A DNA stretch of 64,000 nucleotides from Branchiostoma floridae. Taxonomy: Eukaryota > Chordata > Leptocardii > Amphioxiformes > Branchiostomatidae. Both the position numbers and the translations under genes were made by a program. Position 1 is the first letter of the stretch; the number at the start of each line of letters is the position of its first letter. Shown here piece after piece: positions 32,125 to 64,000 of the stretch. The notes below the pieces were generated by a model. The model did not search any database, was not told where the DNA came from, and saw nothing but the letters and a program-made list of their open reading frames with translations. The DNA is taken from the NCBI RefSeq assembly GCF_000003815.2, contig NC_049984.1, positions 27,448,631 through 27,512,630 of the forward strand, given 5' to 3'.

Positions 32125-32480
32125 CTCATCTCCTAAGTGGCATTTCCACCCTTGAAGACATCCAGGTCCAGATTGAAGACGAGCTTGCGGTGATTCCGCT
32201 TGTTGTGTTGGACACAGTCCTGTTTATTCACCGGTGGATGGCCAGCCTGGCGCAGGGCTTCGTTTGTGCCGTTCACATTTCCACTGTCGTTGTCTGCACA
32301 CAGTGTGTCTGGTACCAATCCATTGTGCAAAAGAGCCTCTGTGTTTTCCTTTGCCAACTTGTGCTCACTGGCTCCCATTTTCTCGATCGGAGTGAACGTT
32401 TGTGAGCATTTGGCATGAAACGCCGGCCTTGTCCTCGGTCGATTTTTCGCAGATTTTGCAATGCTGTTGTGCGGTACACA
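32125..32480 (-). pseudogene. Unidentified repeat-family protein fragment, copy 1
   Basis: The minus-strand frame contains MGASEHKLAKENTEALLHNG and VNGTNEALRQAGHPPVNKQD then CVQHNKRNHRKLVFNLDLDV. A parallel frame gives CSQTFTP-like sequence upstream, implying a frameshift near 32375. The same family, NGTN.AL.EAG.PP.EKQDC.QH..RNHR.KVFNL.LDVF, is at 50250-50430 on the same strand. I cannot name it. The presence of two copies, both decayed, argues for a transposon-borne gene. Confidence 0.55.
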
Positions 32481-32699
32481 GTCCCAAAATCATGCTCATG
32501 TTTTGGTTCAGCCTCAAACAGAGCGCATTCTTACTGAGTACCGCCGATACCTAGCTTTGTAAGAGCCACAGCAAACTTAACATTCGTTTTTGCCGGCTTC
32601 CTCTTCCTCTTCCGGTTGAAGCGACCGCAATCATCTCGTTGATTATTCTGTCGCTTATGGGTGGTCAAGGGTCGAGGCCACCGGCCAAGGTTTTAGGTT

Positions 32700-53589: not shown

Positions 53590-55355
53590 ACTAGTAACTC
53601 ATGTAGTTAAACTGTTCTGTATGTATTGTATGTACAAGTTGCCAAACACTGTATCCTCTACAGTTGTCGTGCAATAAAGTTCTATCTATAAAAGTTACCA
53701 ACGTCAGTAACGTCTGTAGTAATACCTCATACCTCCCCAGTGCAGTGCACATACACCTTCGTACGCAGGACTTGTTCGCATAGCTGATATGGCACACAAA
53801 GAAACCCGTTCTGAACTACCAAGAAGATTTTGAAGGCATTTTCGAACATGCTACAGCGCTGACGTCAGCTACATAATCAATGATCTCTAAGTATCTACTG
53901 TCTAAGCAGATTTATTTATTTATTTATTAGGATTCTCCACACTGGAGGGTATGTTGGGAAGGAAGATCGTAATTTTTCGTGACTTCTTCCAGATTGATTG
54001 ACACATTGGATATCGATATCACGGAGTGGACTTTTATGGTTGTAACATTATCTATTATGTTTGCCCTATATGAAGGCATATGTGTAGGCGAAATGTTTGA
54101 AGGAAATTCATGACTGACAAATAGTAATTTGCTTTTCTTTAAACTTCAGTCAGCCAATGTTGTTTCAAGTCCCTGACACTTTCCGCGAGAGAAGGCTGGC
54201 CGGTGATTCTCATGTCACTGACTATTTTCTGCTATCTGGTGTCTGTTTACAGAGAGACATCAGATCAGTGAACAGAGATAGTGATCATCCGACCCACAGT
54301 CGTGTTTTGAAAGCCTGGCTATACAGTCCTAATAGTGTTTTATGTTATAGAAAGTCACCTACAATATTAAAACAAAAAGGGTGACAAGGAACGCTAAGCT
54401 AAATTGAATATCACTGAGACTCTATAAGAAAACACACACACAAGAGCATATCAAATTTAGTTACCTTTACTTGAACATAGAAGTTATATTTACAGTTTTT
54501 TACAAGCAAAGTGAGGATGAGGAGAAGGTACAAAATATGTTTTGTGATTACATGAAGTGGTATATGTTGTAAAGTTTTTTGTTTTTGCCTTTCCATTGTG
54601 ATGCATTATAATGTTAACCCTTGCAAGAACTTTTTCCAAAAACAAAACAAAAATACAATAGTTGTCAACAGAATATAATACTAAGTTATGTACCTTCCAG
54701 GTCTTCTTTGATGTGTCTCCATGTTGCAAACGAACTGTGTCCTGAAGTACCACAGAAGCTACTGTACTATTGTGCCTTCCAGGTTGACAAGAGGTTTCAT
54801 CTGTATCACTTAAACTGCATTACATGTCGGAGAACACATAAGCCCTAACTAAGTTTCTAAGGCTATGTCAAGAAATAAACGATTATAATGTTTATCCTTG
54901 CAAGAACGTTTCCAAAAATATATTTGTCAACAGAATATAATACAAAGTTATGTGCCTTCCAGGTCTTCTTTGATGTCTCCATGTTGCAAACGAACTGTGT
55001 CCTGAAGTACAACAGAAGCTACTATACTATTGTGCTGAAGTGGTATATATTGTAAAGTTACGTTTATGAAAACAAAGGAAAGTAAATTGAAAAAAAAATG
55101 CTGCGGTTGTTTCAAAACGTTAAAGCCATGATAGGAAGACAGTGTGTACAGTGTCTGGTTGACCAAACCGACTGTCCACCTACCATGGCTTTACTTTTCT
55201 AAAAAACATGGAAAGTCAACCTTGCAAAAAAAAAAACTTAGAAATGTGGCTTAAAGCCACTGTCCCCGCTTGCTGTTCTTGTAGGGCGTGGTGCGGGAGG
55301 TCTGGCGGGCAGGGCCCCCAGAGGTTCCGCTTCTGGTCCCGCAGCGGCAGACGGG
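53590..55355. other. Interval with a duplicated segment
   Basis: No gene supported. A ~130-bp block (CCTTGCAAGAACTTTTTCCA ... TGTATTATA ... ACTGTGTCCTGAAGTAC) at about 54617-54760 recurs at about 54897-55040. A LINE-like TTTATTTATTTATTTATTAG end is near 53910. Confidence 0.5.
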
Positions 55356-56267: not shown

Positions 56268-57029
56268 NNNNNNNNNNNNNNNNNNNNNNNNNNNNNNNNN
56301 NNNNNNNNNNNNNNNNNNNNNNNNNNNNNNNNNNNNNNNNNNNNNNNNNNNNNNNNNNNNNNNNNNNNNNNNNNNNNNNNNNNNNNNNNNNNNNNNNNNN
56401 NNNNNNNNNNNNNNNNNNNNNNNNNNNNNNNNNNNNNNNNNNNNNNNNNNNNNNNNNNNNNNNNNNNNNNNNNNNNNNNNNNNNNNNNNNNNNNNNNNNN
56501 NNNNNNNNNNNNNNNNNNNNNNNNNNNNNNNNNNNNNNNNNNNNNNNNNNNNNNNNNNNNNNNNNNNNNNNNNNNNNNNNNNNNNNNNNNNNNNNNNNNN
56601 NNNNNNNNNNNNNNNNNNNNNNNNNNNNNNNNNNNNNNNNNNNNNNNNNNNNNNNNNNNNNNNNNNNNNNNNNNNNNNNNNNNNNNNNNNNNNNNNNNNN
56701 NNNNNNNNNNNNNNNNNNNNNNNNNNNNNNNNNNNNNNNNNNNNNNNNNNNNNNNNNNNNNNNNNNNNNNNNNNNNNNNNNNNNNNNNNNNNNNNNNNNN
56801 NNNNNNNNNNNNNNNNNNNNNNNNNNNNNNNNNNNNNNNNNNNNNNNNNNNNNNNNNNNNNNNNNNNNNNNNNNNNNNNNNNNNNNNNNNNNNNNNNNNN
56901 NNNNNNNNNNNNNNNNNNNNNNNNNNNNNNNNNNNNNNNNNNNNNNNNNNNNNNNNNNNNNNNNNNNNNNNNNNNNNNNNNNNNNNNNNNNNNNNNNNNN
57001 NNNNNNNNNNNNNNNNNNNNNNNNNNNNN
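56268..57029. other. Assembly gap (762 N)
   Basis: An N run of estimated size just beyond the 3' end of the RAG1-like gene. Any right-hand terminus of a transposon carrying that gene may be hidden here. Confidence 0.99.
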
Positions 57030-57521
57030 ACCTATTGGTTCTCTGTTTTCTATATTTCCAAACAGATTACTCACTCCTGTGATTTCTCCCACAATATTGA
57101 CATAATTTGTAACTTGTATACAGTCGTACTGATTGGCACTACATAATTTTTGTATACAGTAATGATGACCTGAAGTGACAAGATCAGTCCATGACAGAAG
57201 ACGACTCCTTCCTTGACTGAAGATGGTATGCAGGTAATACTGATTCACACTACATGCCGATTGACATTATACAGTACATAGTATACAGTAAATCACTGAA
57301 TGAGTAATACTAATTCTAACTAACTAGTAATAACTAGTCTACATGCTGTCTGACATTGTATTGGTAGTAATTTGCAGTTCATGCAACATTTTTTCACGTG
57401 ACTACAGGCAGGGGAGTTGACATTACATGTAGAACACTCCGAAGTACCTGCACTGTTTTTGTATCTTACTTTTTACTTGTGCATTTCTTGTGTATCATTG
57501 AAATGTAAGATCATGGGAAGC
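57030..57521. other. Sequence downstream of the RAG1-like gene
   Basis: Presumed 3' UTR and flank of the minus-strand gene. A loosely repeated ACTGATT..CACTACAT phrase occurs at about 57127 and 57238. No further coding sequence, and no obvious partner for a terminal inverted repeat. Confidence 0.4.
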
Positions 57522-60500
57522 CTAGCCTATGGTGTTGGTTGGGCAGACCCCGATCAGATGGCTTGTGAGTGTTGACTTGAGTCGTGCCACAGGGTCGGGA
57601 ATGGTACAGGTGGGTCTTGCCAGGGAGTTAAACAGTGCATGGACATGCTCAACTCCCTGCTCTGCCATGAACCCCAGCCCGAACCCCCACCTCCTGATGC
57701 AGGGAACCACATGATCTTCTAGCATGTGCATCTTTATTGGTACGGTGCCATTGGGGACATTGCTTCTGTAGTATGACATGAAGTCTTTGATGGCTTTGTC
57801 TGGAAAAGCAAATAAGAGTAAGCATAAATGAGTGTACGTTAAGAAGCGGGTTGTATTGACAACGTTGGTTAAGTAGAAGAATGTACTTAATATTCTAAGA
57901 AAATAGTTTGTACATGTACATACCTAGCTCACATACTGCAGTCTCCTCCATGGGACCTCCATGGGAGTAGAGCTTGTGACATCTTGCAAAACGACTGAAC
58001 AGCTCCTTGTATGTCCCCGCCGTTGACGTCGCTCTGGGCACAAGGGATAGCGGCAGATCTGGAAACTTGTCCATGATCTTGGTCACTGTACGTTCCACCA
58101 TCCCTGTTAGTTCATCTATGGCATCATCCTGTGTATAAAAAAAGGAATAAGTCACAATAGACTCAATATTATACAAGGCACAAAGTCTGTGTGACCGACA
58201 TAAACTCCCAAACTAAAAATAATAACTAGCTTAGTACTTGCCTGCAACATTCTGTTAACGTGGTTTCCATTGAAGGAGTTGCTGTGGAAGGCCTGCCTCT
58301 TCACACGGAGGGTCTGCAGGAGGTCATCCAGTTGGCTCGTTAAGGGTCCATCCCCCTTCTTTATGGACGCCTTCAGTCGCATTTCTTCTGCCTTAGACCT
58401 CTGCATGAATAAGTAGATGTATACAATGTAAGACATATCCCAATTATATAATCAAGTCACATTCATCCATATATATTGATCTTTAATAAATCTTGTTAAG
58501 AATATGTATGTGCCAACTTTGTACATGGTGAATTTACCAGTGAATCTTTCTGACGCACAAGCTCCTCTACCATGGAGCAAGCTTCTGCAAAGACAGCTTC
58601 ATCTAACTTCTCTGTTGTTCCGTTGCAGCAGGCGAGCCAAGCCAGCTCATTTTCCTGGTCATGGAGCTCCTCCTCCACGAGGTCAGCCTCGTCGTCCAGA
58701 CCCCGGGCCTGTTCGATGGCCTGTACGTAGCACCTGAACTTTCCGAGGTGGACGTCGGCCAGCAGGGCCTCCTTGGACACCTCCCCCTCGTGTAGCACTC
58801 CACACAGGTACGACTGCAGCTTTAGGTCAAGCTCATGCATATCTGTCTCCATTAGCTTGAAGGCACGAAGGTATAGCCCCAAGCTTATATGTAGACCAGG
58901 TATGATGACCTGTGAACAAATAGACAGATTTTGCCATAAGTTTAAACAATTATGTGGTGTTCCGCAAGTAAGCAATGGTCCATTTAGCAGTATTGTCAAA
59001 TTGATACTTTTTTAATTAGTTTACCTGGTCTACTGGCAATGCGAACATCACGGGGGCGATCACATTGTGATGTTTTTTGGCTAATGACAACTTGCCATTA
59101 GCCTGCTCCATGAAGTCATGGTAGTGCTGCTGCAGGGTTGCCAAGGTTCTTGGTGGGATGCTTAGCCTCCGATCTTCTGACTCCGGGTTGTTCATTTCCA
59201 TTTTGGTGATGTCACACCACAGGCATGGGTGGACAGCTGTGGTAAAAGTGTTAAAACAATTATTACATAGTATAACTATATATCTTTATGAGAAATAAGT
59301 CATTAACATTTTTGAAGGCTCTGTTTTCAAGAAAGAAAGTGGAAAGGGCCCTTACCACTTGCTCCGGACAGCCCGTACCAAAGGCACAGGAAGGCATAGT
59401 CTCCTGTGCCAAACACACGCATCGTATGCTCCTTGCCATCCTTGGCCCTGCAATGTGAATTTGAATCAGGTTCATTGGGAGGTGACATAAGAAAATGGTA
59501 CAAAGTTAACACAGGTTTAGCTACTTGTCAAAGTAAGTACTAACTGGAAGCTCACCTCCACTTTGACCCTTGCAGATCGCCCAGTTCCTGGGCATACCGG
59601 CCGATGGCAAGCATCAGATTTTCCCGGCTGTCCTTTGCCTCAAAAATGCTGAACACAGCGGTGTTCTGCCGGGAGTTTGGATGGTCCCTGTTGAGCAGCT
59701 GGAAGGTCAGTTTGAAGGAGCCTCCCCCGTGGTCTCCCCCGACCTTTACCCAGATCTCATCTTGGGGGATTTTCCCCCCATGCCATGTAAGGCACCTGTA
59801 GAAGATAGATAATTTCCTGTAAATCACTTTTACTTTTCAACCTAGACATATATAAGCAATAACATTCTTTTTATGTACACAGGGTGACACCATAGCTGGT
59901 TGCCAGATCTTCTGTGTTGCACCAACTGTCAAATAGACTAAGGGTTAGATGAGATGAGACAAACATGCAAGCTGAGAAAATTAATGCTTTCTTACTCTGA
60001 CTCCTGACACTTCTCCAGGTAGTCAAAGATGGCAGCGCCGACTGGGGAGATGTACGCACACGGAAGCAGTTGCACCTTCGTGGGGTCCGACCCATCTTTC
60101 TTCGCTCCCTTAACACAGAAAGGTAGGGTTTCGGCGTGCATGTCATATGCAGTAAGGCGCTCCCTGGCGGCCCTTCTCGTCAGTCGCTCACTCTCCATTG
60201 AGATGTTGTACATCTTAAGCCAGCTATAACAGAACAGACAACTCTGTTTAGACTATGTATACCAGTAAGGTTCTTTGTACAAGAATGTTGTAAATGTAAC
60301 TTATGTTGTCTACAGAAAATGGTTTTCAATTTTACCTTCTGAGTTTCCCAAGTTGATTGTAGTTCAGTCCTATCTTTACTTTTGCCTCCAGCTGGTGACC
60401 AGAAGGGATGACAACTTGATCGAACTTCAGCTGGTGCAGCATGCTCCTCAGCTCGTCCCGTGGCACCCTCCGCAGTTCCTCCCGGAGCAGCACTCCAGGA

Positions 60501-62061
60501 TCCCCACCACTCACCCTGTCTCTCACCTCCTCCATAACCCTAGCCTTCTTTCGAACGGTAGAACGGGCTGCCTCTGCTGAGGACTTTCTGGGCTTGGGGA
60601 CATGCATGAGACGTAGGGGCTAAAATTGAAAAAAGAGACACACATTTCATTATCTGTGGGAGGGGGGAAGGTGGGAGGGAAAGAGAGTTTTTGCAAACCA
60701 AGACAAAGAGGTAGGGCGGGTGGAGACAGAATCTATAGCTGCTCTTACCATAAATTCTTATTGTCATATTGTCTATCCGACTGCTGCCTACCCCTGTGAC
60801 AGGGGTCCCAGCAGCAAAAATGGATACGACGATAAATGTAAAATGTCAATTAGAGAAAACTTATGATACATACCTGTCCTGGTGTTTTTGCCTCAACAAT
60901 CCTCGGGTCACGGGAGAGAGATCTCATCCGACAATACATCGAATAAAAGGCATCCTGCTGGTCAGGTGTCAGGGGACCTTTCTCACTTAGACCAACTGTT
61001 ACCTTATCACTGGTAACAGATGTGGAAGGTTGGGCATCACGGGAGGAAGGAGGAGGACAGGTAGCAGGGGCAGGTGTAGTAGTCATGGTAGTGGAGGGAG
61101 GGGTTAACACTGTGCTAGGAGTGGAAGGAGGTACAGGTACATGTACGGGTGGTGGGATCACCTGAGTGTTAGTGTGAGGCACCATAAGGAGATATCTCCT
61201 TCCAGGTAGCAGAGGCGGTGTTGTGGTGTGAGAAGGAGCAGGCATTTGTGTTGTGTTTGTAGGACATTCATTATGATACTTAAGTTCATCCAGCCTCAGC
61301 TGTGCACAACAGTTTCTACAGTTAAAAATTAATTGAGCATAGCAGGACCTCCAGGTCCTGTGAACAGATGTCAGGTCACTTGCTTTTATTTGTGCTTTGC
61401 ATATAGCACAGTCAGCATTGTTATTTCCAGCTATCTGGAACAACTTATGTAAGCATTCAAAGCAAAACACATGAGCACATAGTGCTTGCACGGGTAGGTA
61501 TACAAAACACTGGCAAATACCACATTTGTATGCCTCCAAACTACAGATTGGTTTGAATCGATCCTCATCAAGAGGGAAGTCATCTAATGTGCTTAAGAGT
61601 TCAGAGAAAGTCTCTTCACTCATAGTTTTGGCACACTCTTCCACCTTTTCACCTTTCTCATTTTTGCCTTTCTCAGTTTTCTGAGTTTTTGGCCTACCTG
61701 GAGACTTCTTTTTTACTGGTCTCCCCCCTTTTGTCAGTGTTGCTACCTTCTCACAAGGAATGCAGGTTTTTCCATACCAGTGAGGATACCATGACACTCG
61801 TGTTGGTAGCGTGTCAGATTTCCTGTACAGTTTGCACCTACACCTATGGCAAAAGGGTGGGGGATGTAGGTAAGACCTGTCCTTTTGGACATCTACCAAC
61901 CACACTTCTTTAATCTTATCGGCAAACTCAACACATGAAAGCAGTTTGACTTGTTTTGCCCTGTCTTGGTTTGTCTGCACAAACTCGCCACAAAACCGGC
62001 AAAGCTTTGCAAGGTTTTTGATGTGTTCTTGTAGTTGTGAATCAGTGCTGCAGGCAGACAT
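57522..62061 (-). CDS. RAG1 N-terminus-like RING protein with Chapaev/CACTA-type transposase core (N-RAG-TP-like), 10 exons, 1085 residues
   Basis: Exons: 60874-62061, 60336-60619, 59996-60223, 59556-59795, 59356-59447, 59025-59236, 58538-58909, 58242-58400, 57924-58128, 57522-57799. All phases agree and there is no internal stop. Zinc sites as in RAG1: C21-x2-C24, C71-x2-C74, H94..C100-x2-C103. A C3HC4 RING runs from C180 to C221 (CGIC, CAHVFCFEC, CAIC), followed by C248-x2-C251..H263..C266. Two GRP AT-hook-like motifs lie at 113-123. A proline/threonine-rich linker spans 270-345. Core: D588 in VKVGGDHGGGSFK, D663 in FGTGDYAFLC followed by C682-x2-C685, and E1040/E1044 in AEQGVEHVH. These fit a DDE RNase H triad. 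The D-then-CxxC layout resembles CACTA/Chapaev rather than Transib. Expected role: DNA-binding transposase or a domesticated derivative, acting in the nucleus. The start is the first ATG, 20 residues before the first zinc pair. Confidence 0.88.
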
Positions 62062-64000
62062 TTTGTACAGTTGAGAAAAAAACTAGCAAGGTTCATGGAC
62101 ATCTACATCTGAAAATTGCAATACAGGTATATATTCACTATATGAATAGACAATATGAATTGTTTATCCAATGTACTACTAGTATTGTTGTTTTGACAAC
62201 ATAATTTTAGTAGTGCAGCAAAGAGATGTCTCCTATTTTTCTCATCTATAAAGTATTCACATTATCAATTCTAGGAGACAGTCTGTATTTTGTATCTATT
62301 GTATTATTGTTGTCACAAGAAAAGTTTAATAAGCATCAAAGAAATGTCTCCCTGTTGTTTTTTCTCTCAGCTCTTTGTAACATTCATTACATAAAGAACT
62401 CTGATGGTGGGGAGGGGGGCACATTCAGCGATATTTATCTACTTCAATACAACAACAATTTGATATGATCAGTCTCCTGAGTATTTTATTCAGGTAGAAC
62501 AATTTTCTTAGGGATACAATTTAATTTAGAACAGTATAGAACGAAATACAAGACTCTACAGTAACTGATATTGTTCTAAATATGACCTACAGGTCGTGCA
62601 CTCTTTGTCATTTTATCCGCTCGTAACACAAAGGAAAGAAAGCAAATGAAGAAAAGAAGCACGGATATTAGTAGTGGTAAGTATGAGATTGACAACAGAT
62701 ACAAAGATTACCGGTGGATAACTCCGGGAGAGGAGCAGTGCTCAGATGAAGAAGAGCAAAGTCAAGGGTATGATAAAAGTTTGCCCGGTGAAGCCCTATA
62801 CCCGGAAGTGCGTGTCATGTCCCCGTATGTTTGTGATTAGAAATTATATATCCCCACAGGTCTCCTTTCATCAATGAGACCTTACAGGGCAGGATATAAA
62901 CTCAAGTAAGACAACTTCTTTGAGGTTGATATGTGGTTTATTTGCTCAAAAACACCTTAGTTACGGCAAGTAAATATTCAGTTGCTATGCCGGCACGTGG
63001 GCTGCCCGTGCCGGCGTAACACGATATGACCATATTTGGGAGTGCCTCGCGATGCCGCGCAGGCGCACACTAAGGGAGCAGGATGAGAACTTTAGGCGGT
63101 GACGTGAGCTGAACTTGGGATAATTTTTTCCTGTTTTTATGGGATCATTTTTTTCCTTTGTTTTTATCGTGGCAACTATCATTGCTTGAGCTGAAATGAA
63201 TTGTCTGATTCATGAATGAACAAAAACAGGTTAATCATGTGTGTCAAGTTGAAAGGCAATTAGAGAGAAACGGCGTCAATGCCAACATAACTGACCCACA
63301 ATCCCCGGAAAAGTGCGGCTGCCAGCCGGCGACGGGGCCCCCAGTCCGGCCGGGTGGTGTTCGCCGAAGCTTCGTGGGCCATGTGCAGCAGCACGTGCCT
63401 GAGGCCAGCTGGCATTGTGAGTAACGTACGATTTGCTCTAAGGACACTGACGAAATATGGCAAAGCTCGTGCATGCTATAGAAAATATTCAGATCTGCTT
63501 TACTTACTATCACTATCAGTTCTCTTAGCGTTCAGTATGACTAGAACCTACACTCTCTAGCCTCCTTCTCACACCAGCATTTACGTGGCGGTGGTGGTGG
63601 GTGTTGAGCGTTGATTCGCGATTTTCAAGACGACCGAAGAATCTCTTGCCATGGGAAATCGTTTTGCTGCCACTATCTCCCATGACCAAAGATTCTTCGC
63701 CCGTGTTGAATATAGCGAACCAGCGCCCCCTAAAAAATATTAAACGCCGGCGCTACAATAACAAGTCTGTGGAGGACTACTACTTGAATACGTAAAAATA
63801 CTACTACTTATTTTGCATCTTTTCACACACTAGATTTTTACCAGCACTATTCTGAGCGAGAACAGGGCAAACTTTTTTTTTTTTCAATTACAGATTGCAC
63901 TGTCTTCAAACCAAATATGACACGTTCTGGTCGTCAAAATTGTACAATTTACATACCCGCTCTGCTCGAAAAGCTGCTCGAGGGCGGTCACAGCATTGTA
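62062..64000. other. Upstream flank of the RAG1-like gene
   Basis: No gene is firmly supported. A possible short first exon on the plus strand at 62646 (MKKRSTDISSG before GTAAGT) would be divergent from the RAG1-like gene, 585 bp away. Its unspliced frame ends after 64 codons. A stem GCCGGCACG / CGTGCCGGC is at about 62990-63017. CpG-richer sequence with overlapping ORFs of no known family is at 63300-63420. Confidence 0.35.

Follow-up and report, generated by a model that had tools for sequence, protein, structure and literature searches.

Several described systems resemble the gene analyzed here. Kapitonov and Koonin, in 2015, named the Chapa domain after Chapaev transposons from lancelet and sea anemone and reported two Chapaev subgroups in which Chapa is followed by a RING, as in RAG1, in a passage that names no host for them. 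On their inference, a common ancestor already possessed Chapa, RING and catalytic core as one fused protein (PMC4411706). In the account of Martin et al. (2020), the RAG1-like protein (RAG1L) of the amphioxus ProtoRAG transposon carries three N-terminal zinc motifs and a RING, and RAG1L proteins occur with a RING in molluscs and without one in echinoderms (PMC7204232). N-RAG-TP is described as consisting entirely of sequence resembling the RAG1 N-terminus, in a text that repeats the hypothesis of N-RAG-TP as a donor to RAG1 (PMC8355894). Here, we analyzed 64,000 nucleotides of the Branchiostoma floridae genome (NC_049984.1, positions 27,448,631 to 27,512,630; hereafter the window, with coordinates counted from its first base), and focused on a ten-exon gene on its minus strand (62061 to 57522). 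Judged by its sequence, the encoded protein is a Chapaev (DUF1280) transposase that combines a RAG1-type zinc domain, a RING and a C2HC finger with a core in which all catalytic residues are kept. The gene is very probably the transposase of an amphioxus Chapaev-type cut-and-paste DNA transposon (DUF1280; CACTA-Mirage-Chapaev-Transib/RAG1 group) whose coding sequence is intact.

The gene shares with the published Chapaevs a DUF1280 transposase, the order Chapa then RING, and an amphioxus host (PMC4411706). The architecture is not new, because Chapaevs with both Chapa and RING were reported in that 2015 paper; amphioxus Chapaevs were known as well, and the gene is a well-preserved example. A preliminary description of this DNA held that the gene would bear on how RAG1 was put together, which is too strong in light of that publication. 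The account of RAG1 assembly stays unchanged by the gene. The intact full-length protein and its predicted RAG1-fold core fit, without establishing, the idea put forward in 2015 of a common ancestor of Chapaev, Transib and RAG1 in which the zinc domain, the RING and the core had already come together.

Gene structure and catalytic core

The ten-exon gene is real, and the structure assembled by hand in the preliminary description was reproduced exactly in span, exon number and length. The exons join in phase to 3258 nt, corresponding to 1085 codons and a TAG stop, with zero internal stops. The introns are 108-254 bases long, eight with GT-AG borders and one, between exons 8 and 9, with GC-AG. 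Exon 1 (60874..62061, minus strand as for all features of the gene; residues 1-396, GT donor) is open over 396 codons; a simple model built on the base composition of the window puts the chance of this at about 3e-11 for each start point. From the N- to the C-terminus, it encodes the RAG1-type zinc domain (Chapa), the basic GGRP/GRPK motifs, the RING, the C2HC finger, and a proline-rich linker.

Two lines of comparison support the introns. Residues 401-1085 align without gaps, with 6 substitutions in 685 positions (99% identical), to P0001 (LOC144875275), a gene model from Branchiostoma floridae x B. japonicum; introns 2-9 thus agree with the gene model of another pipeline, and the match points to amphioxus as the source of the window. 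Intron 1, upstream of the point where P0001 starts, is supported by full-length relatives that cross the junction: P0006, P0008, P0010, P0011, and P0019 all continue across the exon 1/exon 2 join, and residues T393 and P397 at the junction are kept in all four rows of alignment A5.

The remaining exons carry the core. Exon 2 (60336..60619) contains the beginning of the P0001 match at residue 401, and exon 3 (59996..60223) is supported by its open frame and by P0001. Exons 3 and 4 together carry the Pfam match to DUF1280 (residues 537-641), which scores 46.4 bits against a curated cut-off of 25. DUF1280 has been equated with the Chapaev transposase (PMC3985635), and the match above cut-off therefore identifies the protein as a Chapaev transposase. 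In the CMCT signature, the second D and the E of a D-D-E triad are separated by a stretch containing C(2)C and H(3-4)H (PMC12730594). The signature is present here as D588, D663, C682xxC685, H1018xxxxH1023, and E1040/E1044. D588 (GGDHGG, 59734-59732) lies in exon 4 (59556..59795), D663 (GDY, 59401-59399) in exon 5 (59356..59447), and the zinc pair C682/C685 (59225-59214) in exon 6 (59025..59236). The spacing of the second Asp and the C2 and H2 residues is, we presume, like that in RAG1. The helical insertion between the second Asp and the Glu begins in exon 7 (58538..58909), followed by exon 8 (58242..58400; GC donor) and exon 9 (57924..58128), both supported by an open frame and the P0001 match. 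Exon 10 (57522..57799) provides H1018/H1023 (57728-57711), the TAG stop, and the catalytic Glu, presumably either E1040 (57662-57660) or E1044 (57650-57648). The D-D-E and C2/H2 residues are conserved.

The predicted catalytic core of P0001 adopts the RAG1 fold, with 14-18% identity over the superposed core (ranks 1-26). On this prediction, the likeness of the core to RAG1 is one of fold only; by sequence, the core profile A1 found no RAG1 in the PDB at E up to 10. The preliminary description, which placed the RAG1 likeness in the N-terminus, was right about that region but too narrow, as the predicted core extends the resemblance. Taken over sequence and model, the resemblance to RAG1 spans most of the protein length. 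Vertebrate RAG1 and amphioxus ProtoRAG RAG1L accordingly share with this protein the order of N-terminal zinc sites, the RING with its second finger, and the core fold; they differ in the low identity of the core, and no RAG2-like partner was recognized near this gene among the 11 open reading frames scanned between 54.9 and 63.8 kb.

N-terminal zinc region

The Chapa, or RAG1_imp_bd, zinc domain occupies residues 1-103 (61753..62061), with C21, C24, C71, C74, PH94, C100, and C103. Pfam RAG1_imp_bd (PF12560) matches residues 1-118 with an E value of 2.9e-8 (28.5 bits against a cut-off of 23.3). Together with DUF1280, likewise above its cut-off, this upholds the earlier view that the gene encodes a transposase whose N-terminus resembles that of RAG1. 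The C3HC4 RING (residues 180-221, 61399..61524) retains eight of eight zinc ligands (C180, C183, C195, H197, C200, C203, C218, and C221). Its fold is visible in the predicted model of exon 1, and its Pfam zf-C3HC4 score of 19.0 bits falls slightly short of the cut-off of 21. Directly C-terminal of the RING lies the C2HC finger (residues 248-266, 61264..61320; C248, C251, H263, and C266), into which the RAG1 alignment extends. All zinc features listed in the preliminary description were thus found, and the RAG1 N-terminal zinc sites C1-C3 plus RING/ZDD are present in the protein.

A basic GGRP...GRPK stretch, GGRPVKKKSPGRPK (residues 112-125, 61687..61728), directly follows the Chapa domain, and G112, G113, R114, K119, S120, and G122 are invariant in the four-row alignment. 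We take this stretch to resemble an AT-hook. In RAG1, a GGRPRQ stretch follows the RING, whereas the basic motif here precedes it (profile alignment, no significant match).

Structure-database searches place RAG1 first. With the protein as a single query against the PDB, full-length RAG1 ranked at the top (3.7e-07), and the best non-RAG1 match was RNF125 (6.8e-05). A profile of four N-termini (this protein, P0019, P0011, and P0006) gave 2e-18 for full-length RAG1 and 2e-11 for the best non-RAG1 RING, among the best 60 of 150 matches. A profile of the region before the RING (118 residues of this protein) matched the RAG1 N-terminal domain 21wb_A at 2.8e-10, with the next non-RAG1 row at 0.031. 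Because this pre-RING profile finds RAG1 on its own, the RAG1 signal lies in the front zinc domain and in its order with the RING. The preliminary description had stood or fallen on RAG1 outranking generic RING proteins over the first 270 residues: full-length RAG1 does come first, but its rank comes from the zinc domain, and the RING taken alone is neutral.

These results also dispose of the notion that the gene is a chance assembly, a spurious model containing a generic RING. RINGs are common, and the one here shows no preference for RAG1. The exon-1 structure prediction has a mean pLDDT of 50.6 and is usable in the RING part only, and the 50 entries listed in its fold comparison are RING, U-box, and similar chains from many proteins. 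However, the improbability of the exon-1 reading frame, the gapless 685-residue match to P0001, the top rank of full-length RAG1, and a pre-RING part that finds RAG1 alone below an E value of 0.03 refute this notion, to which we attach almost no probability.

The same N-terminus raises the question of a true N-RAG-TP in the sense of Panchin and Moroz, in which the N-terminus was passed to RAG1 through recombination with Transib. Such a reading would fit the presence of a RAG1-type N-terminus on a transposase; the Aplysia element, as described, likewise has one within a mobile element, and the donor hypothesis is repeated in the literature (PMC8355894). By that description, however, N-RAG-TP is N-terminal-like sequence only, whereas the N-terminus here is followed by a full DDE core. 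Moreover, the donor invoked in the preliminary description is not needed, because RAG-like transposons of amphioxus and molluscs already bear the same N-terminal fingers (PMC7204232), and the 2015 paper explains the fingers by common descent (PMC4411706). We consider this reading quite unlikely.

Residues 17-81 of P0006, in the Chapa region, weakly match zf-AD (19.9 bits against a cut-off of 28). The RAG1 N-terminal/Chapa domain might, to go by this sequence match, share a fold with the insect ZAD zinc domain; a literature search linking the ZAD name with RAG1 and transposase found no paper.

Relatives and mobility

In the whole-length protein search, scoring was confined to the 8000 candidates with the most shared words; it found 18 proteins, a list that is not a census, and 11 of the 18 carry Branchiostoma names. 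A tree was built from the last 600 residues of each relative and residues 531-1085 of the window protein, leaving P0018 out of it and of alignment A1 because its match covers 137 residues only. Ten Branchiostoma proteins group with the window protein in a single supported clade (11 rows, 100/99), with the species interleaved. Apart from the P0018 piece, those among the 18 listed proteins that come from B. lanceolatum, B. belcheri, or the B. floridae x B. belcheri assembly reach at most 59% identity over 61% of the length. A wider search with the four-row profile A5 recovered P0001 only and was probably swamped by proline-rich linker words. Within the window, none of 124 tblastn hits marked a second copy outside the gene.

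Two relatives illustrate how the N-terminus varies. P0006 (LOC118422598, Branchiostoma floridae, 1141 residues) has Chapa and a DUF1280 core like this protein (44% identity, covering 75% of the query), but, read by eye, a repeated proline-rich stretch where this protein has the RING. The gene models of P0006 and P0008 both lack a RING by eye, and the RING thus varies within the family. P0019, from the sea urchin Diadema antillarum (983 residues), shows Chapa-like cysteines, RING cysteines, a C2HC-like set (by eye), and a DUF1280 core, yet its identity is only 29% where it aligns with 94% of the first 275 residues, and it has no RAG1_imp_bd or RING match that exceeds the Pfam cut-offs. P0018 (B. 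belcheri, 712 aa) is an otherwise unrelated gene model whose C-terminal 137 residues are 67% identical to the transposase C-terminus, possibly a fusion or an annotation artefact.

With relatives forming a multi-copy family in which Branchiostoma species are interleaved, a transposon is favored over domestication, and, judging by the sequence comparisons, this copy most likely either inserted recently or is still mobile, rather than being a host gene. Domestication would mean that a former Chapaev transposase has been kept by selection for a cellular role in amphioxus. The intact ten-exon gene, the lack of established terminal repeats, and the annotation of the near-identical P0001 in a named amphioxus assembly would suit it; the interleaved relatives, the distance to the other listed species given above, and the retention of all catalytic residues speak against it, and we regard it as improbable. 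A recently dead copy, intact through youth but immobile since its ends were lost or silenced, is a possibility that we entertain tentatively. In its favor, the searched flanks yielded no terminal repeats with a duplication, and the window protein and P0001 end in CPTNTIG (57522-57560) without the basic tail PxPVxRK, which is found in 8 of the 10 Branchiostoma rows of A1 and is also absent from the B. belcheri fragment P0018. Sequence hidden from view may, however, contain the ends.

Specifically, a 762-base run of N (56268..57029) starts about 490 bases past the stop codon and may conceal the element's 3' end, and on the 5' side the window stops less than 2 kb from the start codon. Because of this gap and this edge, the element ends may simply be invisible. 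Typical Chapaevs have CA..TG ends and a 2-5 bp target-site duplication; these are not seen here, and with no duplication-flanked terminal repeats established, only the protein defines the element. The best pair of CA..TG ends with 3-5 bp duplications scored 6, against best scores of 6 to 10 in 20 Markov-resampled controls. A repeat scan with 3-5 bp duplications returned six hits (12 of 16 bases matching), each with a 3-bp duplication and none starting with CAC; five base shuffles (dinucleotides not kept) gave 0, 0, 1, 0, and 0. Although more numerous than in the shuffles, these six were rejected as ends, being scattered and agreeing on no end. Among the 25 inverted repeats listed of 47 around the gene, none convincingly spans it.

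Outward-facing CACTAC words occur twice on each side of the gene, at 57137 and 57248 and, in reverse, at 62210 and 62671 (57137-57254, 62210-62676), and are possible element ends or subterminal repeats. Their twofold occurrence on each side was matched in 3 of 500 resampled flanks (700-base right flank), for a word picked post hoc. Six-letter words present twice per side are ordinary, with four seen, a mean of 2.5, and this number reached in 112 of 500 resampled flanks. As ends, the pair 57137/62215 was rejected: 13 of 20 bases agree, a level reached in 415 of 1000 resampled flanks, and no 2-5 base duplication accompanies it.

Several observations weigh against an intact, mobile, RAG1-like Chapaev element. 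The visible flanks, limited by the gap and the window edge, gave no terminal inverted repeats accompanied by a target-site duplication. An intact frame is no proof of activity, as the probability of finding no stop is 59% at 0.5% neutral change and 12.5% at 2% (substitutions only). P0001 begins in exon 2, at residue 401, and the RAG1-like exon-1 region is absent from that public model. On its own, the RING part resembles RAG1 no more closely than it does other RINGs, with the isolated RAG1 RING structure 1rmd ranking behind RNF125, UHRF1, and BRCA1 for the single query and behind TRAF6 for the four-sequence profile. A search with residues 1-275 (343 candidates, E up to 1) returned only one sea-urchin DUF1280 protein and no RAG1, and the core profile A1 against the PDB (E up to 10) returned no RAG1 but four unrelated chains, most of them coiled coils.

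By analogy with RAG1 and Transib, a transposase dimer would pair two element ends, which would be cut by D588, D663, and E1040 or E1044 and then joined to new DNA. The N-terminal zinc domain and the basic GGRP/GRPK stretch may aid nuclear entry and DNA binding, while the RING could, on the RAG1 precedent, serve as an E3 ubiquitin ligase that regulates the enzyme or promotes its turnover. We would venture, as a doubtful possibility, that the copy is a functional, RAG2-independent, full-length transposase of RAG1 architecture, still mobile in amphioxus or kept by the host as a second RAG1-like gene alongside ProtoRAG. If so, the part played by the RAG1 N-terminus and RING in a transposase before immunity would be directly visible; an active protein would provide a usable Chapaev transposase with a whole RAG1-type N-terminus, in which the role of the N-terminus and RING could be tested apart from RAG2.

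Overall, the interpretation in the preliminary description is partly supported. For its picture of a gene surrounded by dead transposons, the analysis covered 20 other open reading frames (ORFs) in the window (11 of them within 54.9-63.8 kb): one matched a Pfam transposase above cut-off, a Mutator-like fragment (32136-32489; PF20700, E 2.9e-11), and the other 19 did not. No RAG2-like kelch match was found among the 11 ORFs scanned within 54.9-63.8 kb, where short exons or the gap could hide one. Downstream of the gene, direct repeats of 118, 38, and 24 bases (54553-55060) are 89-96% alike, with copies about 260-480 bases apart. Upstream, a 55-base imperfect inverted repeat (63608-63726), 78% complementary with a 9-base spacer, is possibly a small hairpin element.

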